DNA of 15,551 nucleotides from contig CAKUKJ010000014.1 in NCBI GenBank assembly GCA_934662525.1, positions 1 to 15,551 on the forward strand. Reading direction: 5' to 3'. The notes beneath the pieces were generated by a model. The model was given only the letters and a program-made list of their open reading frames with translations. It was not told where the DNA came from and did no database searches. This DNA is from an uncultured Coriobacteriales bacterium (lineage in GTDB: Bacteria; Actinomycetota; Coriobacteriia; Coriobacteriales; UMGS124). The translations under genes and the position numbers were made by a program. Positions within the stretch are counted from its first letter, which is position 1. Each line of letters starts with the position of its first letter. Shown here one piece after another: positions 178 through 15,551 of the stretch.

Positions 178-1284
178 TCATATCTCTTCTTCTCGCAGGT
201 AATCCCTGAGCCTGGGGATGACGAAGCTGAGCTCGCCGCGGCGAGGCGACACTACCACGCCAGCGTCGAGCAACCGTCTGCGGTAAGACTGCACATGTCC
301 CTGAGATACCCCCAAGCGCGTTTGCAGGTCGGCGACGCGGGTGGGGCCGTCGTCGATTGCCATGGCCCGCAAAAACTCAATGTCGCCTCGCGAGAGCGGA
401 CGCAGCATTGCGAGAAAAACGTCCGAGTCAAGCTCGTCGAAAGCGGCATGGCATGCTTGGTTCAGGATGTCGTCGGTAATTTCCTGGCCTTCAGACGAGT
501 ATTCAACCAGATAGTACCCGATGAGCTGAAGGAGGTAGGGAAAGCCGCTCGTTGCACGGGCTGCTTTGTCCAGAACGACGTCGCTCACAATGCATCCGGC
601 CCGTGAGAATGCCGAAGCATAGTATGCGCGAACTGAGGCGATGGAGACCGGGCCGAGGTCTATCTTGTCGGCTCGGTTGAGGAAGGTCAACGTTTTTTCA
701 TTGAGCACTTCGGACAAGGCCGCCGGCAGGCCGGCCATGACAACGGCGATATTCTTTTCTTCGCCCACAAGCTCTTGATATGTTGTCGCCAGTTCTACGA
801 GGGGCGCACACGACGGTTCAACCTCGTCGATGAGGATGAGCACGCCCTTATCGGCTTCGGCCAGGCGGTCGCACAGCATTTCAAGTTTGACGCGAAAGCC
901 ATAGGCCTTGGCCACCTCCTCGGTGAACGTCAGCCCGAACGAGAAGCCAAGGGCACCGGCGGTGAAGCCCTGCACCGGAGGTTTTCTTTCTTTGACGTAT
1001 CGCCCGCCATCGCGTTGCAGTACGTCGAGCAGGGTGTCGAGCATCGTTTCGCCGCAGGTGATACGGGCAACGACATACCCCGCATCACTGGCTCGATCGG
1101 CGATTTCTAGCAGGAGCGCGGTTTTGCCCATGCCGCGTTGGCCCATGATGAGAGTCGCCCGCTCCTTGCTGCCTGGATAAGACGCCAGGTTGCTGTCCAG
1201 ATGTGCAAGCACATCGTCACGACCGACGATGCGGTCTGGGCGATTGCCGAATGCGGGGCGGAAAATTGGACGGGACTTTACCAT
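178..1284 (-). CDS. Orc1/Cdc6-like AAA family ATPase with C-terminal winged helix
   Basis: This is a 368-aa cytoplasmic P-loop ATPase. Walker A is GQRGMGKT (residues 48-55). Walker B is LILIDE (149-154), with D153 and E154 as the likely Mg-binding and catalytic acids. A GFPYLLQLIG segment in the second third resembles the sensor-2/lid region of Orc1/Cdc6-type bacterial ATPases. The last 75 residues look like a winged helix (a DGPTRVADLQTRLGVS helix-turn-helix followed by a short wing), so it probably binds DNA. The start at 1284 is supported by AGAGGAG six bases upstream. The gene stands alone on the minus strand and its upstream region carries the 10-bp repeat array, a plausible target for the protein itself (inference). 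Proteins of this type are widespread in Coriobacteriia and bifidobacteria, usually annotated only as ATP-binding protein. The fold is certain; the biological role is unknown. Confidence 0.9.
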   Translation of the reverse strand: MVKSRPIFRPAFGNRPDRIVGRDDVLAHLDSNLASYPGSKERATLIMGQRGMGKTALLLEIADRASDAGYVVARITCGETMLDTLLDVLQRDGGRYVKERKPPVQGFTAGALGFSFGLTFTEEVAKAYGFRVKLEMLCDRLAEADKGVLILIDEVEPSCAPLVELATTYQELVGEEKNIAVVMAGLPAALSEVLNEKTLTFLNRADKIDLGPVSIASVRAYYASAFSRAGCIVSDVVLDKAARATSGFPYLLQLIGYYLVEYSSEGQEITDDILNQACHAAFDELDSDVFLAMLRPLSRGDIEFLRAMAIDDGPTRVADLQTRLGVSQGHVQSYRRRLLDAGVVVSPRRGELSFVIPRLRDYLREEEI

Positions 1285-1380: not shown

Positions 1381-1495
1381 AAGGCCATGGCCCCTCATGG
1401 GATCAAACTGTAAACGACCGTGAATCTCGTGCGCAATGCCTTGCCGCCGTCTTGCCTTGGTATGCTTCTTGGAAGGCCGCGCTGCTCCCACATCC

Positions 1496-2791
1496 CTACC
1501 TCTCGAACACCTCGGGCAGGCCGAGGAGGTCGCGCATGGAGTTCATGATGGAGTGCACGCCGCCTTTGGGCACTCGCACGGGGCGCATGACATACCGTTC
1601 GGGCACGGCATGTACCAGCACGTTTGCAGGCACATCGTCTTCCACGGTGATAGCCTTTGCACGGCAGATGGCTTGGCAGCACAGGCACTTCACACAGTCG
1701 GCAGGGTAATGGTCGACGCCGAAGGTGCCGTCTGCCTCGTCGAACTTGACGATGGCACCCGTGGGGCAGAACGTGGCGCACATGCGGCACGAGGTACATT
1801 TCTCGGGGTCGATGACGACGTGGCCCCACAGGCGCGTGCGGGCGGGCGTCGTGCTGTCGGCAGGGCCTTCGCCGAGTTCCGCCAGCGCGTCGAGCAGGCG
1901 CTCACGCCGGTCGGGCACGAAGTGGGGAAGCGTGCTATCTGCCATGACCTTGAGGCGCCAGGCCGGCCACCCTGCCTGCTCAAGCGGTGCGTCCTGCACT
2001 CCGCGGGCATCTGGTGTGGCGGCGCCTTCGGCCTCGTCGCGCCGCTCAAGCGGCGGGTCTTGTGGGGCGAGGTCGCGTGGAGCGGTGACGTCCCCGTTTT
2101 CACCAACACGGTCAGTCAGTGAGTCTTGCGGGCCACGGGCACCCGCTTCGCTTGCCGGCTCAATGCTCTCCGTGCTGCGCAGGTTCACATGGGCGTCGCT
2201 GCCCCAGAGGCGGAACAGGGTATTTGCCGTGTCGATGACGTCTTCGGCTACCGTCCGGCCTGGTTTGTGCTCGCATGTGTCGCATGTGCCGCAGATAAGT
2301 TCGATTTCGCGCGCTCCCCACGCCGCAAGCTGCACGAGGGCGGACTCGTCGATACGGCCCAGGCATGTGAGGCGCATCGACGAGTCCTGTTCTTGCAGGA
2401 ATACCCGTGCGCGCTCGCAAGCAATCGTGATTGTGCGTTCGCCCTCGCCCGTGGATTCCAAAGTGCCGTGCAGACGTGCGAGCAGCTCGGTGTCGTTGGG
2501 CTCGCGCGCCTCGAGGGCGCAGGTGGGGCAGGCGGTGGCGCACGTGCTGCATCCCACGCATTTGGCCTGGTCTATGGTAAGGGCCCTGGTACCCTCGTCA
2601 TAGGAGATGCAGCCCGACGTGCAGGCCTGCGCACACCGCAGGCATTCGGCGTTGCGGTTGCGCACAAGCAGGCAGCGCTCCTGGCGCACATGGACATGCT
2701 CGCTTTGCAGCGTCTGCAACGTCTTTGTCACGCTGGGCGCATCGGCCTGGCGTTCCCGGAGACGTGCGACGGCCCTCACCTGGCGGCTCAT
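1496..2791 (-). CDS. Polyferredoxin-like 4Fe-4S protein (four clusters plus Cys-rich middle domain)
   Basis: This is a 431-aa, probably cytoplasmic electron carrier. The N-terminal pair of cluster motifs uses C50, C53, C57, C61 and C78, C81, C84, C88. The C-terminal pair uses C332, C335, C338, C342 and C366, C369, C372, C376. The middle (about 120-180) has C125, C143 and a CGTCDTC motif (167-173) in a context resembling the MvhD/hydrogenase iron-sulfur subunit fold. A Pro/Asp/Glu-rich linker (about 205-285) contains imperfect repeats of a PQDPPLE-like motif. I place the start at 2791: it has GAGGAGGTG upstream and overlaps the stop of the preceding gene by 4 bp (ATGA), implying translational coupling. 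The same frame stays open to 3004, but that extension is shadow sequence. It is the last gene of the minus-strand accessory group; electron transfer to or from the molybdoenzyme is inferred from context. Confidence 0.88.
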   Translation of the reverse strand: MSRQVRAVARLRERQADAPSVTKTLQTLQSEHVHVRQERCLLVRNRNAECLRCAQACTSGCISYDEGTRALTIDQAKCVGCSTCATACPTCALEAREPNDTELLARLHGTLESTGEGERTITIACERARVFLQEQDSSMRLTCLGRIDESALVQLAAWGAREIELICGTCDTCEHKPGRTVAEDVIDTANTLFRLWGSDAHVNLRSTESIEPASEAGARGPQDSLTDRVGENGDVTAPRDLAPQDPPLERRDEAEGAATPDARGVQDAPLEQAGWPAWRLKVMADSTLPHFVPDRRERLLDALAELGEGPADSTTPARTRLWGHVVIDPEKCTSCRMCATFCPTGAIVKFDEADGTFGVDHYPADCVKCLCCQAICRAKAITVEDDVPANVLVHAVPERYVMRPVRVPKGGVHSIMNSMRDLLGLPEVFER

Positions 2792-4863
2792 GGGCGCACC
2801 TCCTCGGTGTCGAGGCCCATAGCGGCGATGAGGTCGCTGGGCGAGATGCGGGCGAGGCGCACCCCGTCGCGCATGAGGATGCGGTCTATCTTGAGGTCGA
2901 GACGCTCGGCCGCGAGAGCCTCCGTTTGGGTGAAGGCCGTCACAAGAAGGTTCTCTCGCGCGTGGCCTGCCGCCTCGTACACGCGGCGCAGGTCGGCCGC
3001 CCACAGGGCGCCCATGCGGTCGAGCGGCGTCTTTGTGGGGTCAAAATAGGCGTGCTTGGGGATGAACCCGTTGACGAATCCCGTGAGCACGACCGTTGTA
3101 TACGAGCGGCCATGGGCGTCGGCCAGGCTCCCGATGCGGACGGCCTCGGTGTCGCCCCCGGGGAAGCTGGGTTCGTACAGCGCGCCGAGAAGGTGGCCCA
3201 CCATGCCTGCGGCGTTTTGGGGGAGGAGGGGTTGGCTCGTATCGAGCAGGCCGAGCAAGTCAAGCATCTCGGAAGGGACGTCCTGCTTGCTTGGGCCGGA
3301 GTCAGCCTCTTGCGCCCCGAGCAAGTCCCAGGCTGCATCTACCAGCTCTTTTCCTGCGAGTCCGCTGAGTTTTGCCAAAGCTGCTTGCCCGGTGGCGAAT
3401 GCCTGGGCGATGCGCGCCAGGCTCGCCTCCTCTGCCGCGTCGAGCTCGCCGGCGCCTGCCTGGGGCAGGTTGCCGGTCTCGAGTGCCTCGAGCGCCTCGT
3501 AGAGCCCGAGGCCCTGCCGGGCGGCATATCGGCGCAGTGCGGCGAACCCAGGGTTCTCTGCCAGCCAATCGCCAAAACCGCACCAGCTGCGCCAAGCGAG
3601 CGCGTCCTGCGAATCGGCGGCCAGGGCGAGCAGGGTGAACAGGCGTGCCGTTTTACAGCGGCTCAAATCACGCGTGTCCCCGTTGAGGACGTGCGCGTTC
3701 GGCTTGCGAACGGAGCGGACGCCGCGCGCGGCCAGGCTATGGCTCAGCGACTTCGCCCACGCGCTGTTGGGCACGGCGAGATAGAAGTCGGCCGGGCTGG
3801 CCCCGGCGGCGACGGCGTCGGCAATATTTCGTGCGATGTACGCAAACTCGTCCTGCGGAGAGGGGAAGGCAAGGGCGCGTGCGTCGCCTGCATGGCCGCC
3901 GGTCGTGGCGGTGCGGCAGCCGTACCGCTCCGAGGCGTTGTCGTGATTCTCGTCTTGCGCGCCTGCCCTCGTGTATCCCTGCTCGCATTCTCGTGCTTCG
4001 GCTACGAGGGCCGCGCAGCACGCCTGAACTGGTCCGGCGTTCCGGCAGGTCCCAAGCCCGGTCACCTCTACGCCGTCTGCCTGGGCGAACTCCATCAAAC
4101 CCTGGGCGTAGGGGTACGCCTCGAACACCTCGCTCGTCGCCTCGGGGTCGCCCGTGACGACGAGGGCCTTGCGGGCGGCCAGCCTGGCCAGCTCCTGCGA
4201 GGCTTGGCTGAGCAGCTGGTAGTCGTCGACGAGAACGCAGTCGTACGAGGCCTCTTCGCATGACTGCGGGCTTGCGCGCAGCCAGTGCACGGCAAGGTTC
4301 GACAACTCGCAGGGCAGGATGCCGCCCGAGAAGGCGAGGCACTCCTTGATGAGGGCGTGCACCTGCAGCTCCTCGTCGGACACGAGCCAGGCAGGGTCGT
4401 CGTCGGCCAGCTCGGTCCAGCTGCGGTAGAAGAACTTGAGCATCTCGCGCAGGCGCTTGGGGCGCACCCCGCTCGCCTTCACGTCTTCAAGCAGGATGTT
4501 CTCCTCAAATGGCAGTAGCAACCGGGGCTTGCGGCCGCAGGCGGCCTGCGCACTGGGATTGCTGAGGATGCCGAGGGCAAGGGCCCGTGGGGTTGCGACG
4601 CGCACGCCCTGCGCGGCAAGCCCCGCCTCGTCGGTACCGAGGGCATGGGACAGGCGGGTCCTCAAAAAGTCTGCGGCCTCGGGCGAGGCGGCCAGGACGA
4701 GGACCTTTGAGGCACCCCGTTTGTCGAGGCTCAGCTCTTGTGCGCCGGCCGATGCCTGGCACCTCTGTCTTTCTGTATAGTCGGCCGCGCGCTGAACCAG
4801 GGCCTCGGTCTTGCCGCTCGCGGCCCCGCCCAATATGCATGCGCGCATCATGCTGTCTGCCAT
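2788..4863 (-). CDS. Degenerate UvrD/AdnAB-like SF1 helicase homologue
   Basis: This 691-aa protein keeps the frame of a UvrD/AdnAB-type helicase with eroded motifs. Walker A is GGAASGKT (12-19). A motif-Ia-like KVLVLAASPEAAD follows at 53-65. The Walker B region is VLVDDYQ (210-216), with Asp in place of the usual Glu. Motif III is reduced to VTGDPEATSEVF, lacking the usual Gln. The motif IV arginine may be R274. The DALAWRSW segment (420-427) matches the UvrD region preceding its 2B domain. Motif V has lost the HSAKGLE signature, and motif VI survives only as ENLLVTAF. ATP binding is plausible; processive unwinding is doubtful. The start at 4863 has AGGGGGA upstream and lies 11 bases after the TorD stop. 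Its presence in a molybdoenzyme operon is odd, and a truncated paralogue lies at 12564-13967. AddB-like or AdnA-like ancestry are alternatives. Confidence 0.85.
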   Translation of the reverse strand: MADSMMRACILGGAASGKTEALVQRAADYTERQRCQASAGAQELSLDKRGASKVLVLAASPEAADFLRTRLSHALGTDEAGLAAQGVRVATPRALALGILSNPSAQAACGRKPRLLLPFEENILLEDVKASGVRPKRLREMLKFFYRSWTELADDDPAWLVSDEELQVHALIKECLAFSGGILPCELSNLAVHWLRASPQSCEEASYDCVLVDDYQLLSQASQELARLAARKALVVTGDPEATSEVFEAYPYAQGLMEFAQADGVEVTGLGTCRNAGPVQACCAALVAEARECEQGYTRAGAQDENHDNASERYGCRTATTGGHAGDARALAFPSPQDEFAYIARNIADAVAAGASPADFYLAVPNSAWAKSLSHSLAARGVRSVRKPNAHVLNGDTRDLSRCKTARLFTLLALAADSQDALAWRSWCGFGDWLAENPGFAALRRYAARQGLGLYEALEALETGNLPQAGAGELDAAEEASLARIAQAFATGQAALAKLSGLAGKELVDAAWDLLGAQEADSGPSKQDVPSEMLDLLGLLDTSQPLLPQNAAGMVGHLLGALYEPSFPGGDTEAVRIGSLADAHGRSYTTVVLTGFVNGFIPKHAYFDPTKTPLDRMGALWAADLRRVYEAAGHARENLLVTAFTQTEALAAERLDLKIDRILMRDGVRLARISPSDLIAAMGLDTEEVRP

Positions 4864-4874
4864 ACGTCCCCCTG

Positions 4875-5552
4875 CTATTCCTCGCCGCTCAGCACTTCGT
4901 CGAGGAATGCCTCGTCCTCAGCCAAAAAACCGTCGGTGAGGTCGGCCAGGCCAAGGTAGAACTTGGTTTTTGCCAAGCGGCGCATGTCGGCGGTCATCAT
5001 TGGGGTCCAGGAGGCAAGGTGGTCCTCAAGGAAGTTCCTCTGCGTCTGCAGCAGCGTCGCAGCCTTGTCCTCGTCGCCTGCGCGCAGGGCGTCGGCGGTA
5101 CGTGCGCAAAGCACCTGCATGAACTCGAGCTCGGCGGCCACGTGGTCTTCGTTCTCGTCCCACTTGGGGTCTTTGTCCAGGCCGTAGGCGTGGTAGATGG
5201 CGAGCACCTCGTCGCGCGCCTCCTGCATCTTGAGGCGCTTCTCGGAGGTGTAGACGCTCTCGAAGGGGAAGGCGGCCGCATAGGAGTCCACGCCGTAGCC
5301 GATGAAGACGCGGGTGAAGTCCACGGCAAGCTCTGTCGTGCTGCGCTCGTCGATGTTGCTGAGATACTCTGCCAGCTGGCGGTACCCGGCGTTGGCTTTG
5401 GGCGAGCCGGTGGCGGCGGGGAAGCGCGTGGCATGCAGACCGTCGAGCAGCGGCTGGTCGACCTCCACGCGATACAGGCGTGCCAGCAGGGCGTAGGTCG
5501 AGTCGCGCTGTGCGCAGAGGTCGGCCAGGTCGTTGAGCATTTCGTTTGCCAT
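4875..5552 (-). CDS. TorD/DmsD-family molybdoenzyme maturation chaperone
   Basis: This is a 225-aa, all-helical cytoplasmic chaperone. Family features are the DFTRVF segment (78-83), the FPFESVY motif (95-101), EDHVAAELEFM (135-145), which is the conserved E-x-H-x(3)-EL-x-FM helix, and a C-terminal FLEDHLASW (174-182). TorD-family proteins bind the Tat signal peptide and the apo form of a specific molybdoenzyme until cofactor is inserted and export is licensed. The obvious client here is the Tat-exported enzyme at 7463-10579. The start at 5552 is supported by AAAGGAG eight bases upstream. Length is normal for the family. It sits between the winged-helix protein gene (23 bases upstream) and the helicase-like gene (11 bases downstream), so all three are probably cotranscribed. 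Confidence 0.93.
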   Translation of the reverse strand: MANEMLNDLADLCAQRDSTYALLARLYRVEVDQPLLDGLHATRFPAATGSPKANAGYRQLAEYLSNIDERSTTELAVDFTRVFIGYGVDSYAAAFPFESVYTSEKRLKMQEARDEVLAIYHAYGLDKDPKWDENEDHVAAELEFMQVLCARTADALRAGDEDKAATLLQTQRNFLEDHLASWTPMMTADMRRLAKTKFYLGLADLTDGFLAEDEAFLDEVLSGEE

Positions 5553-5575
5553 GGGGCGCTCCTTTGGGCTGAATC

Positions 5576-6436
5576 CTAGGCCTCGAGGTCGGCGAGAATC
5601 TCGCTGCTGGCCGGGTCATTTACGTGCTCGAGCTGGGCGAGGGCCTCGCGGCCGACTCCGGTCAGCTCCCAGGCCTTGCCGCCCCAGGTGAGCGCGTCGC
5701 ACTGGTTGAGCTTCTCCACAAAGCGCGACGAATAATACCGGGGCTTTTGCAGCAGGGGGTCGGCGTCGCAGGCCTTGGCTATCTGCTTTGCCGTGGCCCC
5801 GGCACCTGCGCTGCACAAGGTGAGGATGCGCTTGAAGATGGGCAGGTAGTCGCCCTCTTCCTCAAATAGCTTCTCGGTACGCCCCTCGGGGTCGTCGGCC
5901 GCAAGGACCTCCAGGCCCGCCTGCGTGGTGACCCAAAAGGCGGGCGGGGGCGTCTGGGGCTCCAGGTACTCGATGCCGTCCACCACAACGGTTTTGGGCT
6001 CGAGCTCAACCTCCTCGTAGGATTGCCCATCCTCGCCCACGCGCTCGATGGCGCCGGCGCGCTCGAGCAGCATGCAGAAGTCGTTGGCCGAGTACACGCT
6101 GTGGTCGCGCGTCTTGAGGTCGCAGATGAAGTCGGCCACCTCGCGCACGGGCTGTTTGTCGCGGCATTTGCGCAGGATTGCCAGGAGCGTCTTGCGCCTG
6201 ACGGCCATGTGGCCAAACAGCTCCGCCGTGCGCACGCTGGCGGGGCGCGCGTCGTACGCGGGCACGGGCTGCACCTCGGGGTGCTCGGCCTGCTTGAGGT
6301 TCGACCCGTCGCCCACGGGGAAGTCGACCTCCTCGTCGTCCTCGAAATCGATGTCGGCCAGCGGGTCGTAGCCCTCGTCGAAGGCGGCGTCGAGGTCGAG
6401 CTCGTCGATGCCTGTCGCCTTGGTTGTGTCTGCCAT
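5576..6436 (-). CDS. Acidic protein with two winged-helix-like segments, function unknown
   Basis: I do not recognise this 286-aa protein. The first 45 residues are strongly acidic (runs such as EDDEE) and look disordered. Residues about 68-180 and 195-270 each have a helix-helix-helix-wing pattern. The first contains LLAILRKC then ANDFCMLLERAGAIERV and ends FWVTTQAGLEVL. The second contains RILTLCSAG then SSRFVEKLNQCDALTW and ends WELTGVGREAL. The parallel endings suggest an internal duplication of a winged-helix module. The start at 6436 is chosen because AAGGAGGGG precedes it by nine bases; the frame is open 90 bases further upstream without a good ribosome binding site. No cofactor motif or signal peptide is visible. 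Its place before TorD suggests a role in expression or assembly of the molybdoenzyme. Whether it binds DNA or another protein cannot be told from sequence. Confidence 0.82.
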   Translation of the reverse strand: MADTTKATGIDELDLDAAFDEGYDPLADIDFEDDEEVDFPVGDGSNLKQAEHPEVQPVPAYDARPASVRTAELFGHMAVRRKTLLAILRKCRDKQPVREVADFICDLKTRDHSVYSANDFCMLLERAGAIERVGEDGQSYEEVELEPKTVVVDGIEYLEPQTPPPAFWVTTQAGLEVLAADDPEGRTEKLFEEEGDYLPIFKRILTLCSAGAGATAKQIAKACDADPLLQKPRYYSSRFVEKLNQCDALTWGGKAWELTGVGREALAQLEHVNDPASSEILADLEA

Positions 6437-6495
6437 ACGTGTTCCCCTCCTTGTTGGGGCGTGCACCCCGAATCCTCTGCTCTCTGCGCACATAT

Positions 6496-6533
6496 GGCGG
6501 CAATGGAAGCCGATCTCCGCCCCCATTGCCGCC
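6496..6533. repeat. 11-bp inverted repeat upstream of the winged-helix/TorD gene group
   Basis: GGCGGCAATGG (6496-6506) and CCATTGCCGCC (6523-6533) are perfect inverted copies separated by 16 bases. The repeat begins 60 bases before the start codon at 6436 on the minus strand. No T-run follows on either strand, so it is not a standard terminator. It could be an operator or a leader hairpin for the accessory gene group. Confidence 0.7.
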
Positions 6534-6556
6534 CAATCTACGCAGCCCCCTCCTCA

Positions 6557-6593
6557 GCGGGCGAGGTTCTGCAACCTCCACTAAAGGCGGGTT
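6557..6593. repeat. Partial copy (one end only) of the hairpin repeat element
   Basis: GCGGGCGAG (6557-6565), followed by a gttctgcaacc segment and CACTAAA, matches the right end of the two complete elements next to it. Those read GCGCATCAG or GCGGACGAG and then gttccgcaac; the one at 6655-6687 also shares CACTAAA. No matching left arm is seen upstream, so this appears to be the remnant of a third, decayed unit. Confidence 0.6.
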
Positions 6594-6663
6594 CTGATGC
6601 GCAAGGCGTGCGAAGGCGATGTGTACTGGAGTACATGAGCCTTCGCAGAACGCGGCGCATCAG
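6594..6663. repeat. Hairpin repeat element, copy 1
   Basis: This is a nested hairpin. The outer stem is CTGATGCGC (6594-6602) with GCGCATCAG (6655-6663). GCG (6606-6608) can pair with CGC (6651-6653), leaving a GAA bulge. The second stem is TGCGAAGGC (6609-6617) with GCCTTCGCA (6639-6647). The third stem is TGTACT (6622-6627) with AGTACA (6630-6635), closed by GG. An internal loop of GATG against TGA separates the second and third stems. A right flank, gttccgcaacc, is shared with the other copies. It lies between the ferredoxin subunit gene and the winged-helix gene. A REP/BIME-like repeat or a structured RNA would both fit. Confidence 0.9.
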
Positions 6664-6690
6664 GTTCCGCAACCCACTAAAACGCGGGTT

Positions 6691-6761
6691 CTCGTCCGCA
6701 AGGCGTCGGGAGGCGATGCGTACTAGATGTACGTGAGCCTCCCGAGAACGCAGCGGACGAG
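6691..6761. repeat. Hairpin repeat element, copy 2
   Basis: This has the same architecture as copy 1, displaced by 97 bp. The outer stem is CTCGTCCGC (6691-6699) with GCGGACGAG (6753-6761). The second stem is TCGGGAGGC (6706-6714) with GCCTCCCGA (6737-6745). The tip stem is CGTAC (6719-6723) with GTACG (6729-6733) and a 5-base loop. The loops AAGGCG, GATG, TGA and GAACGC are identical to copy 1. The stems differ at seven positions, and each time the partner base changes too. The element ends 11 bases before the stop of the ferredoxin subunit gene at 6773, where it may stabilise or terminate the molybdoenzyme transcript. Confidence 0.9.
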
Positions 6762-6772
6762 GTTCCGCAACG

Positions 6773-7459
6773 CTACATCTTTACCTCGCCGTCTTGCCAG
6801 GTGCGGTTGCGCAGTATGTAATAGTAAGACGGGTCGTTGCCGGAGTTGGGCAGCTGGTACACGTCGGACTCCGCGTAGTCCTGGGCAAGCTCGCCCAGGG
6901 TGATGCGCCCGCCGGTGAACATGGCCTCGTAGCTGTGGTCGGCCGCCTCGCGGTCCATGTCGTAGACCACGTCGGGCGCCTCGAAGCTCTCAATGCCCTT
7001 GTCCAGGTCGCCGAAGAAGCGGGCGCGGCCTCCGCACTGGCTCACGCACTGGGGCAGGCCACCCTCCTCCACGAGATCGTGGCACAGGGTGCACTTCTCC
7101 ACCACGGTGAGCTCCTCGTTGAGGTAGCGCACACCGTAGGGGCATGCCGGCACGCAGGCCTGGCAGCCGATGCACTGCTCCGCGTCGATCTGCACGGTGC
7201 CGTCGTCGAGCTTGACCGAGGCGCCCGTGGGGCACACGGCCACGCACTCGGGGTTCCGGCAGTGCTGGCACGAGACGGGCAGGTAGTACATCTCGACGTC
7301 GTTGGTGTGGACGTAGTCGGCCTTCTTGGTGGGGCCCACGCGCAGGACCTTGTTCCAGAAGTTGCCGATCTCCACGTTGTTGGCGGCCTTGCAGGCCACC
7401 ATGCAGGCCATGCAGCCCACGCAGCGGTTGAGGTCGGTGACGATGGCGTACTGGCTCAT
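6773..7459 (-). CDS. DmsB-like ferredoxin subunit with four 4Fe-4S clusters
   Basis: This 228-aa electron-transfer partner serves the molybdoenzyme encoded immediately upstream. Sixteen cysteines form the standard four-cluster arrangement of the DmsB/NrfC/PhsB family: C13-C16-C19-C23, C64-C67-C72-C76, C96-C99-C102-C106 and C123-C126-C138-C142. There is no signal peptide or membrane segment. If it works outside the membrane it would have to be exported by the Tat system together with the catalytic subunit, as is known for this family. The start at 7459 is 3 bases after the upstream stop, with GAGGAGG overlapping the end of that gene, which indicates tight coupling. No gene for a membrane anchor (DmsC or NrfD type) is present in the window, so the link to the quinone pool is not seen. 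Confidence 0.95.
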   Translation of the reverse strand: MSQYAIVTDLNRCVGCMACMVACKAANNVEIGNFWNKVLRVGPTKKADYVHTNDVEMYYLPVSCQHCRNPECVAVCPTGASVKLDDGTVQIDAEQCIGCQACVPACPYGVRYLNEELTVVEKCTLCHDLVEEGGLPQCVSQCGGRARFFGDLDKGIESFEAPDVVYDMDREAADHSYEAMFTGGRITLGELAQDYAESDVYQLPNSGNDPSYYYILRNRTWQDGEVKM

Positions 7460-7462
7460 TTC

Positions 7463-10400
7463 CTACGCCTCCTCTCGAATGTCGTAGTTGGGCAGCCATT
7501 CCTTCAGGCGCGGGTCGGAGGCGTCGGCGATGATCTGGGTGCCGTCTTCGGGCGCGCAGGGGATGACCTGGCCGTTCGGGCAGTTCTCAGGCGTTGCCTT
7601 GTAGATCTTGACGGGCACGCCGCGCATGTGGCTGGAGCCGATGAACTTGTCCTGGCCGTGCGGGTCCCAGATGCAGTCGATGCAGGAGAGCTCGAAGCCG
7701 TGCGTGGGGGCAGGCAGCTCGGGATACCACCAGGCGTGCTCGGCGTTGGCCCAACCCTTGGAGATGCCCTCGTAGAGGTCCACGGTCTGGCGCACCTTGC
7801 CCCACTCGGTCTCGATCCATGCCCAGTCGCCCTGCTCAAGGCCGCGCTCGGCGGCGTCGGCCGGGTTCATCTCCAGGCGCGGCACGGGCCAGATCTCGCG
7901 GCACCAGGGCAGCTGCCTGTGCTCGGAGTGGAAGTACACCGGGATGCGGCGGCCGGTGGTGAGCAGGATGGGGTACTCGGTGGTGTCCACGTCGCCGTTG
8001 GGGCCGCTCTTGGGCTCCTCGAAGCGCGGCATCATCTCGCCGATGACGTCGAACTTGCCGGGCTCGAACTCGTTGGCCTTGTCGATGCAGTACGTCTCGA
8101 ACGCCATGGGCCAGAACTCGACGAGCGCGTTGGGCGTGGGGCAGCCGAAGTTGTTGACGGGCTGGCCGTTGTCGTCCACCGACCACGGCGAGGCGGTGCA
8201 GGCGTCCTTGCCCATGCGCATCCAGCCGGTCTCGAAGCGGCGGTAGGTACCCCAGCGGTCGGGCTCGAGCACCTTGGCGTTGAACCAGCCATGCTCCTGG
8301 AAGTCGGCGCGGTAGTCCTCGAAGTGCTCCCACTTGCAACCCGGGTACTGGGTGCCGAAGCCGTTCACGTCGTTGTGCGCCTGGAACCAGTCCTCGAGGC
8401 GGTCGTCCTGGGCATAGGCGCCCGGGGCGTCTCCGGCGATGTTGGTCCAGGTGCCGTTGATGTTGCCCTGCTTCTCCATGGCCTCGAAGAGCAGACGGTT
8501 GATGTCGTAGTCGAACTTGGTGTCCACCGGGGGCTCCACGGCCTTCTGCGTGAGGCCGATGCCGCCGGACGCGCCCTGCGACACGCGGATGTTGTTGATC
8601 TCGGTCCAGTGCTGGCACGGCAGGATGATGTCGGCCATCTCGGTGCCGGGATGGTGGAACATGTTGATGTCGACCCAGAAGTCCAGGCTGGCCATGGCCT
8701 CCCATGCCTGATGGGCGTTGGCCATGTTCATGAACGAGCCGGACTCGTTGATGCCGCCGCGGATGGGGTAGGGGTCGCCGGTGAGCGCGGCCTCCCACAG
8801 GCACGTGGCGTCGGCCCACTCGTTGTAGTACGCGGTGAGCGGGAACTTGTCGGCGCCGACCATGTTGGAGTACACCTCGTACTGGTCGGGGATGTCGTTG
8901 GGGTCGATCGTCTCGTCGGGGTAGTACGGCAGCGGCGTGCCCAGGCCTAGGAGCTGCTTCTTCACGGCCTGCGGCATGTTGGAGCCGGGTGCCGCGGTGG
9001 CCTGCTCGTCCACGGGGGTGCGGGTGAGGCCGCGGTTGCCGGCGGGCGTGTCGAACGTGCCGGCCGAGTAGATGAGGTTGAGCACCGCGCGCACCGTCTG
9101 GGTGCAGTTGCCGATCTGGTCGGGGGCGAGGTTCAGGTGGATGCCGCCGTTGGGGTAGTTCTGGCCCTCGGGGCGCGTGGCCCACTCGAGCAGGGCGTCC
9201 TCGATGAGCTGGGGGTCGAGGCCCGTGATCTGGGAGCACCACTCGGGCGTGCAGTCGGCCACGGACTCCACCAGGTAGCTCCACACAGGGCGCGCCGTGT
9301 GCACGCTGCCGTCGGCCAGCGTCACCTCGTGGGTGCCCTCGAGGTCGAAGTCGATGCCGGCGTCCTCAAGCTCGTGGTAGGACAGCGGCGGCAGGTAGCC
9401 CTCCTGCGAGGTGCCCTCGTAGACGACCTCCATCTCGTCGCGGGTGGGCGCCACGTGGTTGCAGCCCTCCCACTGGGTGGTGTCCACGTCCCAGTACACC
9501 AGGCCGCCCTTGCCGTCGTTGGCGTTCTTGTTCCAGGCGTAGAACTTGCGGCACGAGCCGCCTTCCACCAGGTCGCTCTCCTTGAGCAGGCGCGTCTTCA
9601 TCTTGGAGCCGGTGAGGTCGGGTGCGGCGGTGATGGGGGTGGACAGGTCGAAGTAGCGGCCTCCGGTGGGCTCCATGTCCTCCACCACGAGCAACGACGC
9701 GTCGCTCCAGCGCTTCACGAACTCCCAGTCGATGAGGTCGTGCTCGATGAGCAGGTGCTGCCAGCAGTTGGCCAGCGCGCCGTCCGAGCCGGGCCGCAAG
9801 TTGAGCCAGTAGTCTGCCTCCTTGCCGGCGCCGGTCAGGCGCGGGTCGATGATGATGTGCTTGTCGGCGCTCGTCATCTTGTCCACGAGGTTGCGGCACG
9901 AGTCGTCGTAGTTGGAGTTCTCCGGCGAGGTGCCCCACTGCACGTACACGCGGGGCCCGTCGCGCAGGGCCATCCACGGCGCGCCGTCCACGGAAGAGAT
10001 CCAGCCCATGAGGCGGCGCGGGCCCTTGCAGATCTCGGAGGCCACGTGGGCGTTGGGCGTGTCGAAGAGCCACTTGTAGAACGCGTAGGGGCCGTAGACC
10101 CACTGGCGCGAGGTGCCGCACATGTTGAAGATGGACTGGCCACCGTACTGGTCGATGATCTCGGTGAACTTCTCACCGATCGTCTCCATGGCCTCCTCCC
10201 AGCTGATGCGCACCCAGCCGGGCTCTTCGCCCTTGGGGTTCGTGCGCTTGAGCGGGTGGTAGATGCGCGCCGGGTGGTAGGCCGCCTGCACGGAGGCCTG
10301 GCCCTTGGAGCAGTGGTTGCCCGAGGATTGGAACGACGACTGGTCGCCCTCGGTCTTCACGATGCGGCCGTTCTTCACGGTGACCCAGACGCCGCACTCC

Positions 10401-10579
10401 ATCTTGCCGCAGCCGCGGCAGCAGCTGCGGATGCGCTTGACCTCGTCCTCGCGGTCGACCGCGCTCGGGTCTTCGGCCAGAGCGGCGCCGGTGCCCACGA
10501 CCCCTGAGAGCGCGACCGTCGCGGCGGTCACGGCAGACAGTCTGGTGAACGCGCGGCGTGTCAGGCTGAGCTTGCCCAT
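7463..10579 (-). CDS. Tat-exported molybdopterin oxidoreductase, DMSO reductase superfamily
   Basis: This is a 1038-aa catalytic subunit. A Tat signal opens the protein: TRRAFTR at residues 7-13, a hydrophobic stretch, and probable cleavage after GAALA (31-35). An iron-sulfur motif follows with C53/C54, C57, C62 and C90, the last pair 27 residues apart, as in this superfamily. The cofactor region includes SEICKGPRR (181-189), where C184 is a candidate molybdenum ligand, and LRPGSDGALA (261-270). The MPT-binding domain lies at the C-terminus. The CCRGCGKMECGV and ICKGPRR signatures resemble the Eggerthella/Gordonibacter enzymes that include catechol dehydroxylases, relatives of acetylene hydratase and pyrogallol hydroxytransferase. 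That placement is from memory, and the substrate cannot be read from sequence. The start at 10579 has AGGGAGGA upstream; a 37-codon in-frame extension is rejected because it precedes the Tat signal. Confidence 0.95.
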   Translation of the reverse strand: MGKLSLTRRAFTRLSAVTAATVALSGVVGTGAALAEDPSAVDREDEVKRIRSCCRGCGKMECGVWVTVKNGRIVKTEGDQSSFQSSGNHCSKGQASVQAAYHPARIYHPLKRTNPKGEEPGWVRISWEEAMETIGEKFTEIIDQYGGQSIFNMCGTSRQWVYGPYAFYKWLFDTPNAHVASEICKGPRRLMGWISSVDGAPWMALRDGPRVYVQWGTSPENSNYDDSCRNLVDKMTSADKHIIIDPRLTGAGKEADYWLNLRPGSDGALANCWQHLLIEHDLIDWEFVKRWSDASLLVVEDMEPTGGRYFDLSTPITAAPDLTGSKMKTRLLKESDLVEGGSCRKFYAWNKNANDGKGGLVYWDVDTTQWEGCNHVAPTRDEMEVVYEGTSQEGYLPPLSYHELEDAGIDFDLEGTHEVTLADGSVHTARPVWSYLVESVADCTPEWCSQITGLDPQLIEDALLEWATRPEGQNYPNGGIHLNLAPDQIGNCTQTVRAVLNLIYSAGTFDTPAGNRGLTRTPVDEQATAAPGSNMPQAVKKQLLGLGTPLPYYPDETIDPNDIPDQYEVYSNMVGADKFPLTAYYNEWADATCLWEAALTGDPYPIRGGINESGSFMNMANAHQAWEAMASLDFWVDINMFHHPGTEMADIILPCQHWTEINNIRVSQGASGGIGLTQKAVEPPVDTKFDYDINRLLFEAMEKQGNINGTWTNIAGDAPGAYAQDDRLEDWFQAHNDVNGFGTQYPGCKWEHFEDYRADFQEHGWFNAKVLEPDRWGTYRRFETGWMRMGKDACTASPWSVDDNGQPVNNFGCPTPNALVEFWPMAFETYCIDKANEFEPGKFDVIGEMMPRFEEPKSGPNGDVDTTEYPILLTTGRRIPVYFHSEHRQLPWCREIWPVPRLEMNPADAAERGLEQGDWAWIETEWGKVRQTVDLYEGISKGWANAEHAWWYPELPAPTHGFELSCIDCIWDPHGQDKFIGSSHMRGVPVKIYKATPENCPNGQVIPCAPEDGTQIIADASDPRLKEWLPNYDIREEA

Positions 10580-10616
10580 GCTTTCCTCCCTTTCTTCTGT
10601 TGGTGCCCCTTTTCCC

Positions 10617-10650
10617 TTGGGGTCGGCATGCACAAACGCACCGACCCCAA
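10617..10650 (-). promoter_or_regulatory. Leader hairpin upstream of the molybdoenzyme gene
   Basis: TTGGGGTCGG (10617-10626) and CCGACCCCAA (10641-10650) form a perfect 10-bp inverted repeat with a 14-base loop. It lies 37 bases upstream of the start codon at 10579, leaving the ribosome binding site outside the stem. There is no T-run after it on the minus strand, so it is more likely an operator or an mRNA-stabilising leader hairpin than a terminator. Confidence 0.65.
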
Positions 10651-10681
10651 ACCCATTGTGCGCGCGTAAGGGAGGCGGGGC

Positions 10682-10747
10682 ATCATGCAAAGGGTCCTTT
10701 TCGTTTGGTTCGCGCCATGCGCGGGTTTGTTCCCCATATCATGCAAA
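10682..10747. promoter_or_regulatory. Direct repeat flanking a palindrome in the divergent promoter region
   Basis: ATCATGCAAA occurs at 10682-10691 and again at 10738-10747, start to start 56 bp. Almost midway between them is the palindrome CGCGCCATGCGCG (10711-10723). The group lies 103-168 bases upstream of the molybdoenzyme start codon, where an activator would bind. A candidate regulator is the LuxR-type protein encoded divergently. This is positional inference; no consensus for that regulator is known to me. Confidence 0.45.
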
Positions 10748-10950
10748 ATGCGATTATGGCTGGTAAATGCAGTTGATGGCGATATAGGGGGACGAATCGG
10801 GACACAAGCGCAGGCAACCTTTGGCGCGGGTATGGCATCATGGGGGAGGCGACGCATCAGGAAGCGAATTCGCGATGCCCGGGCACTCCCTGCGCCAAGC
10901 GTCGGCCCAAAGACCGTCGTCGCAAGCCGGTTGCCCCGCCCGGTCCCATA

Positions 10951-10975
10951 AACCTTTTGAAGGTTGATATATAAT
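10951..10975 (+). promoter_or_regulatory. Palindrome and -10 box of the LuxR-type regulator gene
   Basis: AACCTTTTGAAGGTT (10951-10965) is a perfect palindrome with 6-bp arms. It is followed five bases later by a consensus TATAAT (10970-10975). No good -35 hexamer sits 17 bases upstream, and the palindrome fills the spacer region, so the promoter is probably activator-dependent or autoregulated. A ribosome binding site, AGGGGAGG (10985-10992), precedes the ATG at 11003, implying a leader of only about 20 bases. Confidence 0.55.
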
Positions 10976-11002
10976 GCCGGCAAAAGGGGAGGCAGGGGTT
11001 TC

Positions 11003-12577
11003 ATGGGACAGGCATTGCCGCCGACAAATGAAGACAAGGCCGTCGGCACCGAAGAGGGCGGCGTCGCCGCGCGTTTGCGCGGCGTGCATTGGCGCGAGCT
11101 CGTGGGCTTGCGGTCGGTGGGCTTCGCCCTTGCCCGCGCCTGGGTGTACCTCATGTTCATCGGGGCGGCGGCGAGCTGCGTCACCTGGAACGGCAGCCCC
11201 ATCCCCGGCGTGGCTTTCGGTGTCTCGACGGTGTGCCTTTTCCTCACCATGTTCTTGCCGGCGCTGCGTGCCAAGGAGTTCTGCGAGGCCATGAGCAGGC
11301 CCGGGGTGCGCTGGCTCGTACCCGCGCTGCTGAGCATGGGCACGCTCGCCATCGTCTCATCCACCTTGCCCGGCATGCCTACCCAGGTACTTTGCATAAT
11401 CGGCGGCGTGACGACCGGCGTGGGGTCGGGCTTGCTTGATTTGGGGTATGGCGAGCTGTACCGCAACGTCCCCTCTCGCCAGACGGCGTTTGAGGCGCCG
11501 TTCGCCTTCCTTCTCGCCGCGTGCGTCTATTTTGTCTCATGGTGGTTGCCGCCTGCGGGGGCATGCCTGCTCGCGTGCGTTATCCCGCTTGTGTCGAGCG
11601 GCATACTGTTCGGGCCCCTCGGCGTGTGGTCGCCAGCCTCGCAGCCTGCCGTGCGGCCCGTTCCCATCTCCATTACCAAGTTTGCCGTGCGTGTGGGTGT
11701 CTGCGCGTGCCTGGTGGGACTGGCCGATGGCCTAGTGCGCGCGGTGTTCATGGAGGCCGGCGGCATGGGCATGCGCGACTTCTACCATGTGCCGTCCCTC
11801 GTCGCCTCTGTCGTCACGGTGGTCATCATCTGGGGGAGCCTTATCGTGCGCAAGACGTTTGACTTGCGCTGGATTTACAAGGTGACCGTGGGCATCATGG
11901 CGTTCGTGTTCCAGTTGCTGCCCATCTTTGTGGGCACGGGCGTGCAGAGCGTGCTGGCGCTTGCGGGCTACGGCACGTTCAACGTCCTTATCTGGATGCT
12001 TCTCGCTGACACCGCCTATACCTACCGCCTCTCGTCTATCACGGTGTTCGGCATCGGCTGGTCCATGATCACGCTCGGTGTGCTGCTCGGCTCGTTTGCC
12101 GGCAATGCGGCGGTGGCGGCGTTCTCGCCGTTTTCTCCTCGGATGCTGAGCGTCGTGGCTCTTGCCGCCACCTGCGCGGTGCTGTGCTCTTATATGTTCG
12201 TGCTCAAGGAGAGCGACCTCGTGCAGATGACGGCCCAGGCTGAGAGGGCCGAGGACGCCGCAGACGCTGCGGGCAAAGATGGGGTACCTGGCGACGGGGC
12301 TGGCGGTGTTCCGCGCCCGCCGCGTTTCGTCAACAGGTGCCGCGATATCGCAGCGCGCTATGGCCTCACCGAGCGAGAGACGGAAGTCATGATCTCATAT
12401 GCAAAAGGCCGGTCTTACGCGCGCTTGCAAGAGGACCTCCATGCGTCGCGCGGCACGGTGACCACGCATCTGCGTCATATCTACCAAAAGTTGGATATCC
12501 ACAGCAAGCAGGAGCTGCTTGACCTCATCGAGGGAAGAGGCGTTCGGGTTGACGAGAGGGGCGATGGGCGTGAGTGA
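11003..12577 (+). CDS. Membrane-spanning LuxR-type transcriptional regulator (about 12 TM segments)
   Basis: This is a 524-aa integral membrane regulator. About twelve hydrophobic segments run from ARAWVYLMFIG near residue 45 to ATCAVLCSYMFV near 400. An Ala/Asp/Gly-rich linker joins them to a C-terminal LuxR (GerE-type) helix-turn-helix from about residue 455: LTERETEVM, then GRSYARLQEDLHASRGTV, then the recognition helix THLRHIYQKLDIHSKQELL. Such MFS-like sensor/LuxR fusions are abundant in Eggerthellaceae and commonly lie beside molybdoenzyme genes, whose substrate they are thought to sense. Transcription is divergent from the molybdoenzyme operon, which suggests that operon is its target. 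The start at 11003 is chosen for the GGGGAGG upstream and the promoter position. The 3' end overlaps the next gene by 14 bp. Confidence 0.92.
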   Translation: MGQALPPTNEDKAVGTEEGGVAARLRGVHWRELVGLRSVGFALARAWVYLMFIGAAASCVTWNGSPIPGVAFGVSTVCLFLTMFLPALRAKEFCEAMSRPGVRWLVPALLSMGTLAIVSSTLPGMPTQVLCIIGGVTTGVGSGLLDLGYGELYRNVPSRQTAFEAPFAFLLAACVYFVSWWLPPAGACLLACVIPLVSSGILFGPLGVWSPASQPAVRPVPISITKFAVRVGVCACLVGLADGLVRAVFMEAGGMGMRDFYHVPSLVASVVTVVIIWGSLIVRKTFDLRWIYKVTVGIMAFVFQLLPIFVGTGVQSVLALAGYGTFNVLIWMLLADTAYTYRLSSITVFGIGWSMITLGVLLGSFAGNAAVAAFSPFSPRMLSVVALAATCAVLCSYMFVLKESDLVQMTAQAERAEDAADAAGKDGVPGDGAGGVPRPPRFVNRCRDIAARYGLTERETEVMISYAKGRSYARLQEDLHASRGTVTTHLRHIYQKLDIHSKQELLDLIEGRGVRVDERGDGRE

Positions 12578-13967
12578 GTCGCGGCGCGTATTGGAGTACG
12601 TGCGTTCCTGCGTTGACGGGGGTCGCCTGCCGACCGATGTCGAGAGGGCGTTCCTCCTGGAGGATTTGAAGGCAGCCGGTGTCGAGACTGCAAGGCTCCG
12701 GCACGTGCGCCAGGAGCTGACCGAGCGCAACGATGCGTGCGGGCGGCGTCTGCGTGACGCCGCCGAGTTGAGGGGCGCGGCCGAGACGACGAAATCGGCG
12801 TTTGCAAGGGGCGTCGCGAACGCGGGCGAGTATGCAGAAGGCTGTATGTTCGCCTCGAAAGGGGTTGCGGAGGCACGTACGTTTGCGGTGGACGTCGAGG
12901 GGGCGACGTCGATTGGTTCAGGGAGAGCTTGCGAGAATGACGGTGCCGATGCGGCTGCGAAGGGTCTGCGAGGGCCTTCTGCACTGGTGAAGTGGCGCAC
13001 CCCTGAGGAGGAGCTCGAGGGGGTGGCGCGCTATGTCCAAGAAGCCGTGCGTGTCGGGGGCGATGGCCTGCCTGCCAGCCGCGTGTGTGTCGCCGTGCCC
13101 GACAACCGCTGGGCACGGCTTGCGCAGCGGGCTCTTGAGCACAGGCGCTTTGCGGCAATCCGCACCCAGCTCGGTTACGCGCCGAGGGAGGACCCGCGCG
13201 ACGCGGGACTGTCGCCCGTAAGCGGGGTTTTCTGCAGGCTGGCCCTCCTCGCTGACCCTTCCGATGCGCTTGCCTGGCGGGCTTGGCTCGGGCTCGGCAG
13301 GCCCGACTTGGGCGTCTCGCTTTGGGCGAAGGTGCTGGAGGCATGGGACGCGTCGAGCCCGTTTGATGCGCCTGCATCGCTGGAGCGCGCCGCACTCGAT
13401 TGCGTCGACATCAAGGACGCCCTTGCCGATGCGCGCGGCTTCCTGCTGGCGAAGTCAGGCCTGCGGGGCTACAGCCTCGCCCATGCCGTGGGGATGGGCG
13501 AGGTCCCACAGCTGGTGGGGGTCATGGATGGGGTGGACGTCTGCGATGACGCGTGTACCCTGTTCGGCAAGGTGCAGGCATGTCTGTGCGGCCCCTCGTT
13601 CGGCGACGATCCCCATGTCGTGCATGTGGTGACGTACGACGCAGCGGCGCCGGCGGGCTACGGGGTGGTCGTGGCCATGGCGGCGGTTGAGGGTTTGGCC
13701 GGCCGTTTCTCCGGAGCGAGCGCGGACGATGCGCGCAACGCCCGAGATGGTCTTCAGCGGGTGTTGGATATGCCATGCGACACGCTCATCGTCTCATATT
13801 TCTCGCGCATGCCCATAGAGCTTGCGCGCAAGCTGGGCTTGCCGGTGTCGCGTACTCGTAGGGAGGGGGCGCACGAGATGGCCTGTGTTTGCCGCGCCCA
13901 TGTCCTTGATGAGCTGGGCGGTTCTCTGCCTCCCGCACAGGATGGCGAAGCGTTTCTTGCGGGCTAG
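12564..13967 (+). CDS. Truncated helicase-like paralogue lacking the Walker A/B half
   Basis: This 467-aa protein is recognisable mainly by comparison with the 691-aa product of 2788-4863. Its residues 28-49 (LLEDLKAAGV core) match that protein's 120-141. After a divergent stretch, its 147-200 match 335-386, including VAVPDNRWA against LAVPNSAWA. LALLADPSDALAWRAWLGLG matches its counterpart at 14 of 20 positions. The GPSFGDDPHVVHVVTYDA region matches EPSFPGGDTEAVRIGSLADA. The Walker A segment, the DDYQ Walker B segment and everything between them and the middle domain are missing, so ATPase activity is not expected. The start at 12564 has AGAGGGG close upstream and overlaps the regulator gene by 14 bp, so the two are probably translationally coupled. 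Function is unknown; a regulatory or scaffolding partner of the full-length homologue is one inference. Confidence 0.8.
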   Translation: MGVSESRRVLEYVRSCVDGGRLPTDVERAFLLEDLKAAGVETARLRHVRQELTERNDACGRRLRDAAELRGAAETTKSAFARGVANAGEYAEGCMFASKGVAEARTFAVDVEGATSIGSGRACENDGADAAAKGLRGPSALVKWRTPEEELEGVARYVQEAVRVGGDGLPASRVCVAVPDNRWARLAQRALEHRRFAAIRTQLGYAPREDPRDAGLSPVSGVFCRLALLADPSDALAWRAWLGLGRPDLGVSLWAKVLEAWDASSPFDAPASLERAALDCVDIKDALADARGFLLAKSGLRGYSLAHAVGMGEVPQLVGVMDGVDVCDDACTLFGKVQACLCGPSFGDDPHVVHVVTYDAAAPAGYGVVVAMAAVEGLAGRFSGASADDARNARDGLQRVLDMPCDTLIVSYFSRMPIELARKLGLPVSRTRREGAHEMACVCRAHVLDELGGSLPPAQDGEAFLAG

Positions 13968-13981
13968 GTGGACGATTGTTA

Positions 13982-14013
13982 GGCGCTGCCATTCTAATCA
14001 GACAGCCTTTTTT
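13982..14013 (+). terminator. Possible weak terminator after the truncated helicase-like gene
   Basis: GGCGCTG (13982-13988, with CG bulged) can pair with CAGCC (14003-14007), directly followed by six T residues (14008-14013). The stem is only five base pairs with a 14-base loop, so this is a weak call, supported mainly by its position 15 bases past the stop codon. Confidence 0.35.
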
Positions 14014-14126
14014 GCCTGCTTCGTTGTGACGACGGTTTATCCGTTGGAAGACCTGTCCATCGCTTTCCCATGCGGTTGAACGAAGAAGACCCCGCGGTTT
14101 TTGAAAAGCACGTTACTTGGAAGAAA

Positions 14127-14283
14127 CTGCCGCGATTTGGGGGTTCGCCTACCGTGGTTTGGTGCCAGGTCTCGCCTTTTGAGCGCTGGCGGGGCGCGAA
14201 GTCGCTCCAAATGGCGGTAAACTCCCCCTCGCAAGCGTGTGCGCACGCTTGTATGCGGTAGGCGAACCCCGTTTTCGCGGCAG
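14127..14283. ncRNA. Candidate structured RNA or MITE-like element with long closing stem
   Basis: Outer arms CTGCCGCGA (14127-14135) and TCGCGGCAG (14275-14283) pair over 9 bp. A 4-by-4 internal loop, TTTG against GTTT, follows. Then a 15-bp perfect stem is formed by 14140-14154 and CGGTAGGCGAACCCC (14256-14270). Three hairpins can form inside: GCCAG..CTGGC (14164-14190, with an inner CTC/GAG), GGGGCG..CGCTCC (14191-14208, one G-T pair), and CAAGCGTG TGCG CACGCTTG (14232-14251). Together they give a four-way-junction shape. The surrounding 13968-14353 has no convincing gene; a 114-codon minus-strand frame through it lacks coding character. I cannot match it to a known RNA family. A MITE, whose arms would be terminal inverted repeats, is the main alternative; I see no clear target-site duplication. 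Confidence 0.6.
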
Positions 14284-14353
14284 CATCAGACGAATCGACC
14301 GCTTTGCTCCATGCATCTTGGAATGACGCTTGCAACATGGTAGGCTGGCTTCC

Positions 14354-15419
14354 ATGGATACGGTACTCTGCCTTGGATCAGCTTGGGAATACTGGCATAT
14401 CGCCAGAATCGTCGACGACCCGGCCATGCGGGCCGACCCCGTCGCACGGAGCAGGGTCTTACCTATTCCGCGTTCTAGAGGTGTGCTGCTTGAGTCCGGT
14501 GCGCCTCGCCCTGAAAGTCTCTCTGCGTTGCAGCGGGGGTTCTCACAGCTCGAGTGCGTCGAACTCTCTGATGGGAAGCACGCTGTTTGCGGTTTGACGT
14601 TACCGTTGCATGTGCTTGCAGCCAAAGGAGGGACCTATCGCCAGGCGCCGGGGCGCGTCATTCATCGGGCGTGCCTCCCGCTGCCCGCTGAATCGCTTGT
14701 GGTGATTGAGAACGGCCTGATGGTGAGCTCACCGGAGCACCTCTATCTTCAGGCGGCTCGCACGCTCGACGGCCTCGGCCTGGTGTGGTTTGCAAGCGAG
14801 CTGTGCTCGGTGTTCTCCGTGCATCCCACAGGTGCAGGGGGCATTTTGCCGGCGCGCCCCCTTACGACCCTCAAGAAGCTGGCTAATTATCTGGAAACGG
14901 CTTGTGGCGCAGGGGCTTACGGCGCGAAGAACTTTGTCCAGCGTTCGGCATGCCGTGGAGCATGCGGCTTCCCGCCGTGAGATTGCCTGCGCTTTGCGCA
15001 TGTCGCTGCCCCGCTCTTGGGGCGGCAGGGGTATTCCCAAGCCGATCCTGAATTATGGTACGTCCATTGACAAACGCCTGGCTTCGGCGCATGGATGGAA
15101 TCACGTGTCGCTCGATATGGCATGGCCCGATGCCCGTCTCGCCCTGGAGTACGACAGCGACTCCCATCACCTCGACCCTCGCCGTCGTGCGCGGGACAAT
15201 GACAAGCGTGCCGTGCTTGAGCATATGGGCTGGCGAGTCGTTCCGTTTTCCACCAAACAATTCGATTCGCTTGTGATGGCTGACGACGTCTTTCGCAGGA
15301 TAGGCTCGTTCCTGGGTGTCAAGAACCGTGCCGGAGAGGTGCGATATGACTGGCAAGCCCGTCGAAGCGACCTCAACCGTCGCCTATGGCAGCTGTGCGA
15401 GAACGGCGTTGAGCTGTAG
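14354..15419 (+). pseudogene. Frameshifted AbiEi-like/DUF559 (VSR-like) endonuclease-domain protein
   Basis: Two overlapping frames together make one typical Coriobacteriia protein of about 355 aa. The first frame runs from ATG 14354 to a stop at 14978-14980; an in-frame TTG at 14330 is a less likely start. Its N-terminal part, with VVIENGLMVSSPEHLYLQAA, resembles the C-terminal domain of AbiEi-type antitoxins. The second frame carries a DUF559/VSR-like nuclease core: a conserved Asp in DMAWPDARLALEYD, the acidic LEYDSDSHH, then RARDNDKRAVLEHMGWRVV. Continuity passes from frame one to frame two near 14929-14936, at GAYGAKN then LSSVRHAVEH. This corresponds to a loss of two bases or gain of one. 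Both halves are otherwise intact, so the lesion looks recent, or it is a sequencing error. The family is often multicopy in these genomes; its role is not established. Confidence 0.8.
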
Positions 15420-15551
15420 GTTGAGCCGTCAGGTGCACGCCATATTGCGACGGCGGCAAGTTTTGGCGCTAATCGGGGCCTTGCTCGACAGCAGATTCCG
15501 GTCAACAACTGTCCTCCCGGTTTCGGCGATTGAAAATGAAGGCGCGGGGTG
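15420..15551. other. No gene recognised; weak hairpin only
   Basis: After the stop of the nuclease-domain remnant, GCCGTC (15425-15430) and GACGGC (15449-15454) can pair, followed nearby by a short TTTT. This might be a poor terminator, but the loop is 18 bases and the T-run is separated from the stem. Nothing else is supported up to the window edge. Confidence 0.3.

Follow-up and report, generated by a model that had tools for sequence, protein, structure and literature searches.

A conserved UvrD-like family lacking helicase domain 1A, with one member gene overlapping that of a membrane LuxR-type regulator

What might a helicase relative stripped of its ATP site be doing in a gene that overlaps one for a membrane regulator? 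The question arises from a 15,551-nucleotide stretch of DNA from an uncultured Coriobacteriales bacterium (assembly GCA_934662525.1, contig CAKUKJ010000014.1, positions 1 to 15,551; hereafter, the window), which encodes a 467-amino-acid (aa) UvrD-like protein in a gene overlapping luxR and, on the opposite strand, a 691-aa paralogue. The homology of these two proteins, the loss of domain 1A from the shorter one and the age of that loss are well supported; the function of the protein and what its pairing with luxR means are inferred. The features concerned are as follows:

11003..12577, plus strand: 524-aa LuxR-type regulator with 12 hydrophobic segments (P0003)
12564..12577, plus strand: 14-bp stretch shared by luxR and the 467-aa gene, read from the sequence, with a compatible arrangement in relatives P0228 and P0005
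12564..13967, plus strand: 467-aa stripped UvrD-like protein (P0002), an open reading frame (ORF) with 101 close relatives including itself
12564..12743, plus strand: residues 1-60, helical piece corresponding to where domain 1B begins in the 691-aa protein (the LLEDLKAAG block), placed by a BLASTP segment, the alignment and model helices
12744..12974, plus strand: residues 61-137, variable linker located where parts of 1A (motifs II and III) have been lost
12975..13964, plus strand: residues 138-467, second RecA-like domain (2A) with a 2B-like helical insert
2788..4863, minus strand: 691-aa UvrD-like paralogue (P0001) that keeps Walker A but has changes at other catalytic residues

The two proteins align by BLASTP in a main segment of 351 columns with 92 identities (26%, E 2e-14). 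A sequence-only reading of this DNA had proposed four collinear blocks, and BLASTP bore this out: VAVPDNRWA, DALAWRAW and PSFGDD all fall within the main segment, and LLEDLKAAGV aligns as a separate N-terminal segment (E 8e-4). Profile homology, set beforehand as a test of that reading, was found by hhalign with a probability of 100 and E 9.4e-41 over 329 columns, covering the C-terminal part only. The profiles comprised 19 rows for the 467-aa family, chosen from the 105 matches described below, and 16 rows for the 691-aa side (12 of 120 listed out of 316 in total, the window's own protein among the 12, plus P0104-P0107).

Judged from these alignments and from predicted models, on which we based the domain names (1A, 1B, 2A, 2B), domain 1A is gone from the 467-aa protein, and a fragment of 1B, 2A and 2B are retained. 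The claim that it had lost its "ATPase half" thus holds for the ATP-site domain, with the missing part more exactly described as domain 1A. Residues 1-60 are identical at 24-31 of 60 positions in 16 more distant rows and at 47 of 60 in P0004 and P0005; in the gap-rich linker, only 5-23 of 77 positions are identical across 18 rows. The predicted local distance difference test (pLDDT) falls below 50 at residues 66-135, and the linker between the 1B piece and 2A/2B is probably disordered. Fold matches to the model included UvrD, PcrA, RecB/RecC, AddAB and AdnAB, and the 2A/2B fold of a superfamily 1A (SF1A) helicase (UvrD/PcrA) is present. The protein had no matches in Pfam or NCBIfam, and a sequence search of the PDB with the family profile gave none up to E 1.

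A search with the 467-aa protein, limited to scoring the 7,994 candidates with the most shared words, returned 105 proteins including itself. We define the stripped family as the 101 strongest (P0002 and P0004-P0103, E 1.2e-68 or better, one a 289-aa piece); the other four, P0104-P0107, are 614-669 aa long (E 3e-16 to 1.9e-4). Motif counts for the 691-aa family refer to its 121 listed members (120 of 316 listed). The Walker A pattern G.{4}GK[ST] occurs in 0 of 101 stripped members, in all of P0104-P0107 (4/4) and in all 121 members listed for the 691-aa family; the motif II (Walker B) sequence DDYQ is likewise found in 0/101 versus 121/121. The more general motif II forms DE.Q and DD.Q are also missing from all 101, and the motif II/III region is absent from the alignment. 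The proposed absence of both Walker motifs from the 467-aa protein was therefore correct and extends to its closest relatives. Conversely, a C-terminal tail motif marks 97 of the 101 stripped proteins and none of the 121 listed 691-aa members. P0105 (614 aa) has Walker A, yet its tail resembles that of the stripped family.

An unrooted tree built from 18 rows of the C-terminal part common to both families contains a branch (support 100/99) with nine stripped rows and P0105 on one side and, on the other, the 691-aa family with P0104, P0106 and P0107. Within the first group, P0105 arises from an open fork (80/90) inside the stripped set, in which case the tree needs two changes; the stripped rows were set apart with one change in only 8% of 200 bootstrap trees. 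The branch to P0105 is very long (2.29), a situation in which the tree program warns that placements are unsure, and several other branches are long. By these sequence comparisons, the 467-aa protein is a separate branch rather than a truncated version of the 691-aa protein, and the loss of 1A, whether it happened once or more often, is older than this locus, since this holds under either reading of the tree. Descent of the 467-aa protein from its neighbor is unsupported: the tree places the two on separate branches, and direct descent was rejected on that ground, several of its branches being long. Protein lengths in both paralogue families step mostly by 14 residues (one class modulo 14 holds 71 of 101 and 105 of 121 members), apparently through tandem repeats within the linker that precedes domain 2A; P0083 and P0150 are among the members showing such steps. 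No relative was confirmed when genome and viral contigs were scanned, and searches of open-licence literature on helicases, LuxR and dimethyl sulfoxide (DMSO) reductases in Coriobacteriia and on inactive helicases listed no description of the family.

The 691-aa paralogue is itself unusual. Catalysis in SF1A helicases relies on a motif II glutamate, a motif III glutamine and arginines in motifs IV and VI. The motif II glutamate is replaced by aspartate in all 121 listed members, and the motif VI arginine position (PcrA residue 610) holds cysteine in 114, histidine in four (the window's protein included) and arginine in three. At the aligned motif III position all 121 have alanine, yet glutamine stands one residue earlier in 117; asparagine occupies the motif IV arginine position in 120 of 121, as read by eye in a badly aligned stretch. 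By sequence, this family too has lost catalytic residues, and treating the 691-aa protein as a normal helicase finds no support. A plasmid search with it gave no match. In a PADLOC scan for defense systems, the 691-aa protein weakly matched part of GajB (E 1.6e-5), P0105 matched a model of a DRT-associated helicase (E 1.8e-4) and the 467-aa protein was unmatched; a defense-system reading was dropped.

The upstream partner, P0003, carries a C-terminal LuxR-type helix-turn-helix (HTH; GerE, PF00196, E 1.3e-10) and 12 Kyte-Doolittle hydrophobic windows, a count by a simple method that lies within the 10-12 transmembrane (TM) helices of a known family. Its named matches include proteins from Rubneribacter, Gordonibacter, Adlercreutzia and unnamed Eggerthellaceae and Coriobacteriales, a group to which the window probably belongs. 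As far as the consulted portion of PMC9734109 goes, 10-12-TM LuxRs are widespread in Coriobacteriia, three of them (DadR, HcdR and CadR) have been studied as activators of catechol dehydroxylases, and Eggerthella lenta has 19 TM LuxRs close to molybdenum-dependent enzymes. With its 12 segments, C-terminal HTH and adjoining molybdenum enzyme, the window's regulator resembles that family and, together with its neighbor, fits it; the same portion of the paper mentions no helicase relative alongside such regulators, in which the present locus differs. The 14-bp overlap with the 467-aa gene was borne out for a start at ATG 12564; an alternative GTG start at 12570, matching the place where relative P0004 starts, would leave 8 bp.

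Recurrence of this arrangement was assessed from protein ends alone, by asking whether the C-terminal residues of a LuxR and the N-terminal residues of a 467-aa family member could share overlapping DNA, with a cut-off of 6 codons. Across 120 listed LuxR relatives and 100 family members, only one of 12,000 pairs reached at least 6 codons: P0228, the closest listed LuxR (93% identical), with P0005, a 467-aa relative at 78% identity, whose ends are compatible over 12 codons, with the two frames related as they are in the window. Among 20,000 random tails, 8 codons were reached once, 5 twice and 12 never; among 20,000 shuffled tails, one reached 5 and none 12. Because its 12 codons are unmatched by either control, it is very likely that a second, diverged lineage also has overlapping luxR and 467-aa genes. 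What makes the overlap so long there is solely that the listed start of P0005 lies further upstream; in the same test the pair in the window reaches 4 codons, and P0228 combined with P0004 reaches 2, both under the cut-off. No overlap with the listed LuxRs was found for members at about 45% identity, but this is weak evidence, because the test detects long overlaps only and is blind to short ones, to adjacent non-overlapping genes and to LuxRs outside the list. The proposed coupling to LuxR thus stands for the window and, by compatibility of protein ends, for one close relative, and was not found in the more distant members. Other gene orders gave at most 1 codon (691-aa family followed by 467-aa family), 3 (467-aa family followed by LuxR) or 2 (LuxR followed by 691-aa family). 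Members of the two helicase-like families also come from assemblies whose longest contigs are exactly equal in size in two cases (68,331 and 126,255 bases), with two near-misses within one base, which suggests that both paralogue genes lie on one contig in other genomes. Equal sizes between the 691-aa family and LuxR relatives (2664 and 6900) were judged to be chance, near-misses being equally common.

Divergent from luxR, an operon-like run of minus-strand genes encodes a molybdenum enzyme and, among others, the 691-aa UvrD-like protein and a ferredoxin-like protein:

7463..10579, minus strand: catalytic subunit of a molybdopterin oxidoreductase (DMSO reductase family), its gene divergent from luxR (Pfam and PDB sequence matches)
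6773..7459, minus strand: DmsB-type iron-sulfur subunit (TIGR02951, E 1e-42, below its curated cut-off)
5576..6526, minus strand: 316-aa protein lacking any convincing family match, encoded between the genes for the DmsB-type and TorD-type proteins
4875..5552, minus strand: TorD-type chaperone (PF02613, E 5.3e-35), separated by 11 bases from the 691-aa gene that follows
178..1284, minus strand: at the run's far end, an AAA_16-type ATPase that may carry a winged helix at its C-terminus

The 691-aa gene, with its altered catalytic motifs, is an odd companion for enzymes of this type. On the other side, 3′ of the 467-aa gene, lies an inverted repeat (14127-14154 and 14256-14283) with 28-nt arms that are 86% complementary and 101 nt apart. 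Beyond it, two ORFs in different frames (14330-14980 and 14790-15419, plus strand) overlap within 14330-15419 and may be a single gene interrupted by a frameshift; nuclease-like matches of the second ORF, to MTES_1575/DUF559, fall below cut-off. The window holds no Rfam RNA element at gathering scores, and its promoter and terminator predictions show no excess over shuffled sequence.

How, then, is the 467-aa protein best explained? We give about an even chance to an account in which it is a pseudohelicase kept as a non-catalytic binding subunit and made together with the 12-TM LuxR regulator. By homology and models, the protein is a UvrD/PcrA-like chain from which domain 1A, with Walker A and motifs II and III, has gone, leaving the 1B piece, the linker and 2A/2B in series; because its catalytic residues are lost, it should be unable on its own to bind or hydrolyze ATP in the manner of a helicase. 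Conservation of the core and N-terminal piece, and not of the linker, supports a maintained protein over a relic. Its job would most likely be binding a nucleic acid or a partner protein, by analogy with RecC or AddB, and the best candidate partner would be the paralogous 691-aa P-loop protein, whose gene lies about 8 kb away. Produced with the 467-aa protein, the regulator would probably control the divergent molybdenum-enzyme operon, seemingly including the 691-aa gene. A bolder version, in which two old paralogues, one with a P-loop but few further catalytic residues and the other lacking an ATP site altogether, form a heteromeric non-motor complex in these actinobacteria that acts as an ATP-sensing or DNA/RNA-binding device and is made with the LuxR sensor and the molybdenum-enzyme operon, strikes us as a long shot. 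Several observations weigh against the pseudohelicase account: the predicted model is of moderate quality (pLDDT 72, predicted template modeling score 0.52), and its long structural alignments have root-mean-square deviations of about 10-18; linkage to LuxR is seen only in the window and one close relative; the two helicase-like families show no long overlap (467-aa followed by 691-aa family, at most 5 codons, in 2 of 12,221 pairs); and equal longest-contig sizes give neither the distance nor the order of the paralogues, and none are shared by the 467-aa family and LuxR relatives.

Some of the same observations would be expected if the gene served genome maintenance or another accessory role and merely rode in the luxR transcript of this lineage, the pairing being functionally meaningless. 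The single long overlap among 12,000 pairs, the lack of a shared longest-contig size with LuxR relatives and the differing N-termini of more distant family members all favor such a passenger. We nevertheless consider it somewhat unlikely: the protein ends still fit an overlap in a relative with a 467-aa protein of only 78% identity, the 691-aa paralogue sits in the neighboring operon, and the negative tests are weak, missing short overlaps and unlisted LuxRs. It is also conceivable, though unlikely, that the protein serves the LuxR regulator as an accessory factor, with the regulator itself, RNA polymerase or promoter DNA as its binding target, and tunes expression of the divergent molybdenum-enzyme operon. 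Its linkage to LuxR, not seen in the wider family, counts against this role as well, the available portion of PMC9734109 mentions no such partner, and a match to HelD reflects the shared 2A fold, with UvrD and AddB rows tied with HelD. A decaying local pseudogene of the 691-aa gene, to which 26% identity and a lost ATPase region might point, is very improbable and largely contradicted: the same loss is common to the 101 closest relatives, the tree gives them a separate branch, the core is conserved and the tail motif is theirs and not that of the listed 691-aa proteins, and the frame is open with coding-like GC content by codon position.

Of the earlier description, the non-catalytic protein of helicase descent and the overlap of its gene with the one for a membrane LuxR are supported. 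Inactive helicase subunits are already a known kind; a conserved, unnamed family that lacks 1A and retains 2A, 2B and a piece of 1B would clearly exemplify the reuse of a motor as a binding module, and, if the tie to LuxR and the molybdenum operon is functional, nucleic-acid machinery would be linked to the control of respiratory or xenobiotic enzymes. The SF1A helicases UvrD, PcrA and Rep share 2A, 2B, part of 1B and the order of the blocks with the 467-aa protein, which, without 1A, Walker A and motifs II and III, should not be a motor alone. RecC and AddB, helicase-fold subunits that are not the main motor, are among the Foldseek matches (1w36_C and 3u44_B). Unlike the 467-aa protein, they retain a 1A-like domain, and the matched chains are longer (1077-1156 residues); no nuclease domain was identified in the 467-aa protein. 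According to the portion of PMC9539457 consulted, the helicase relative Utp25 has likewise been named a pseudohelicase, but it is a eukaryotic ribosome-assembly factor related to RNA helicases and belongs to another context.
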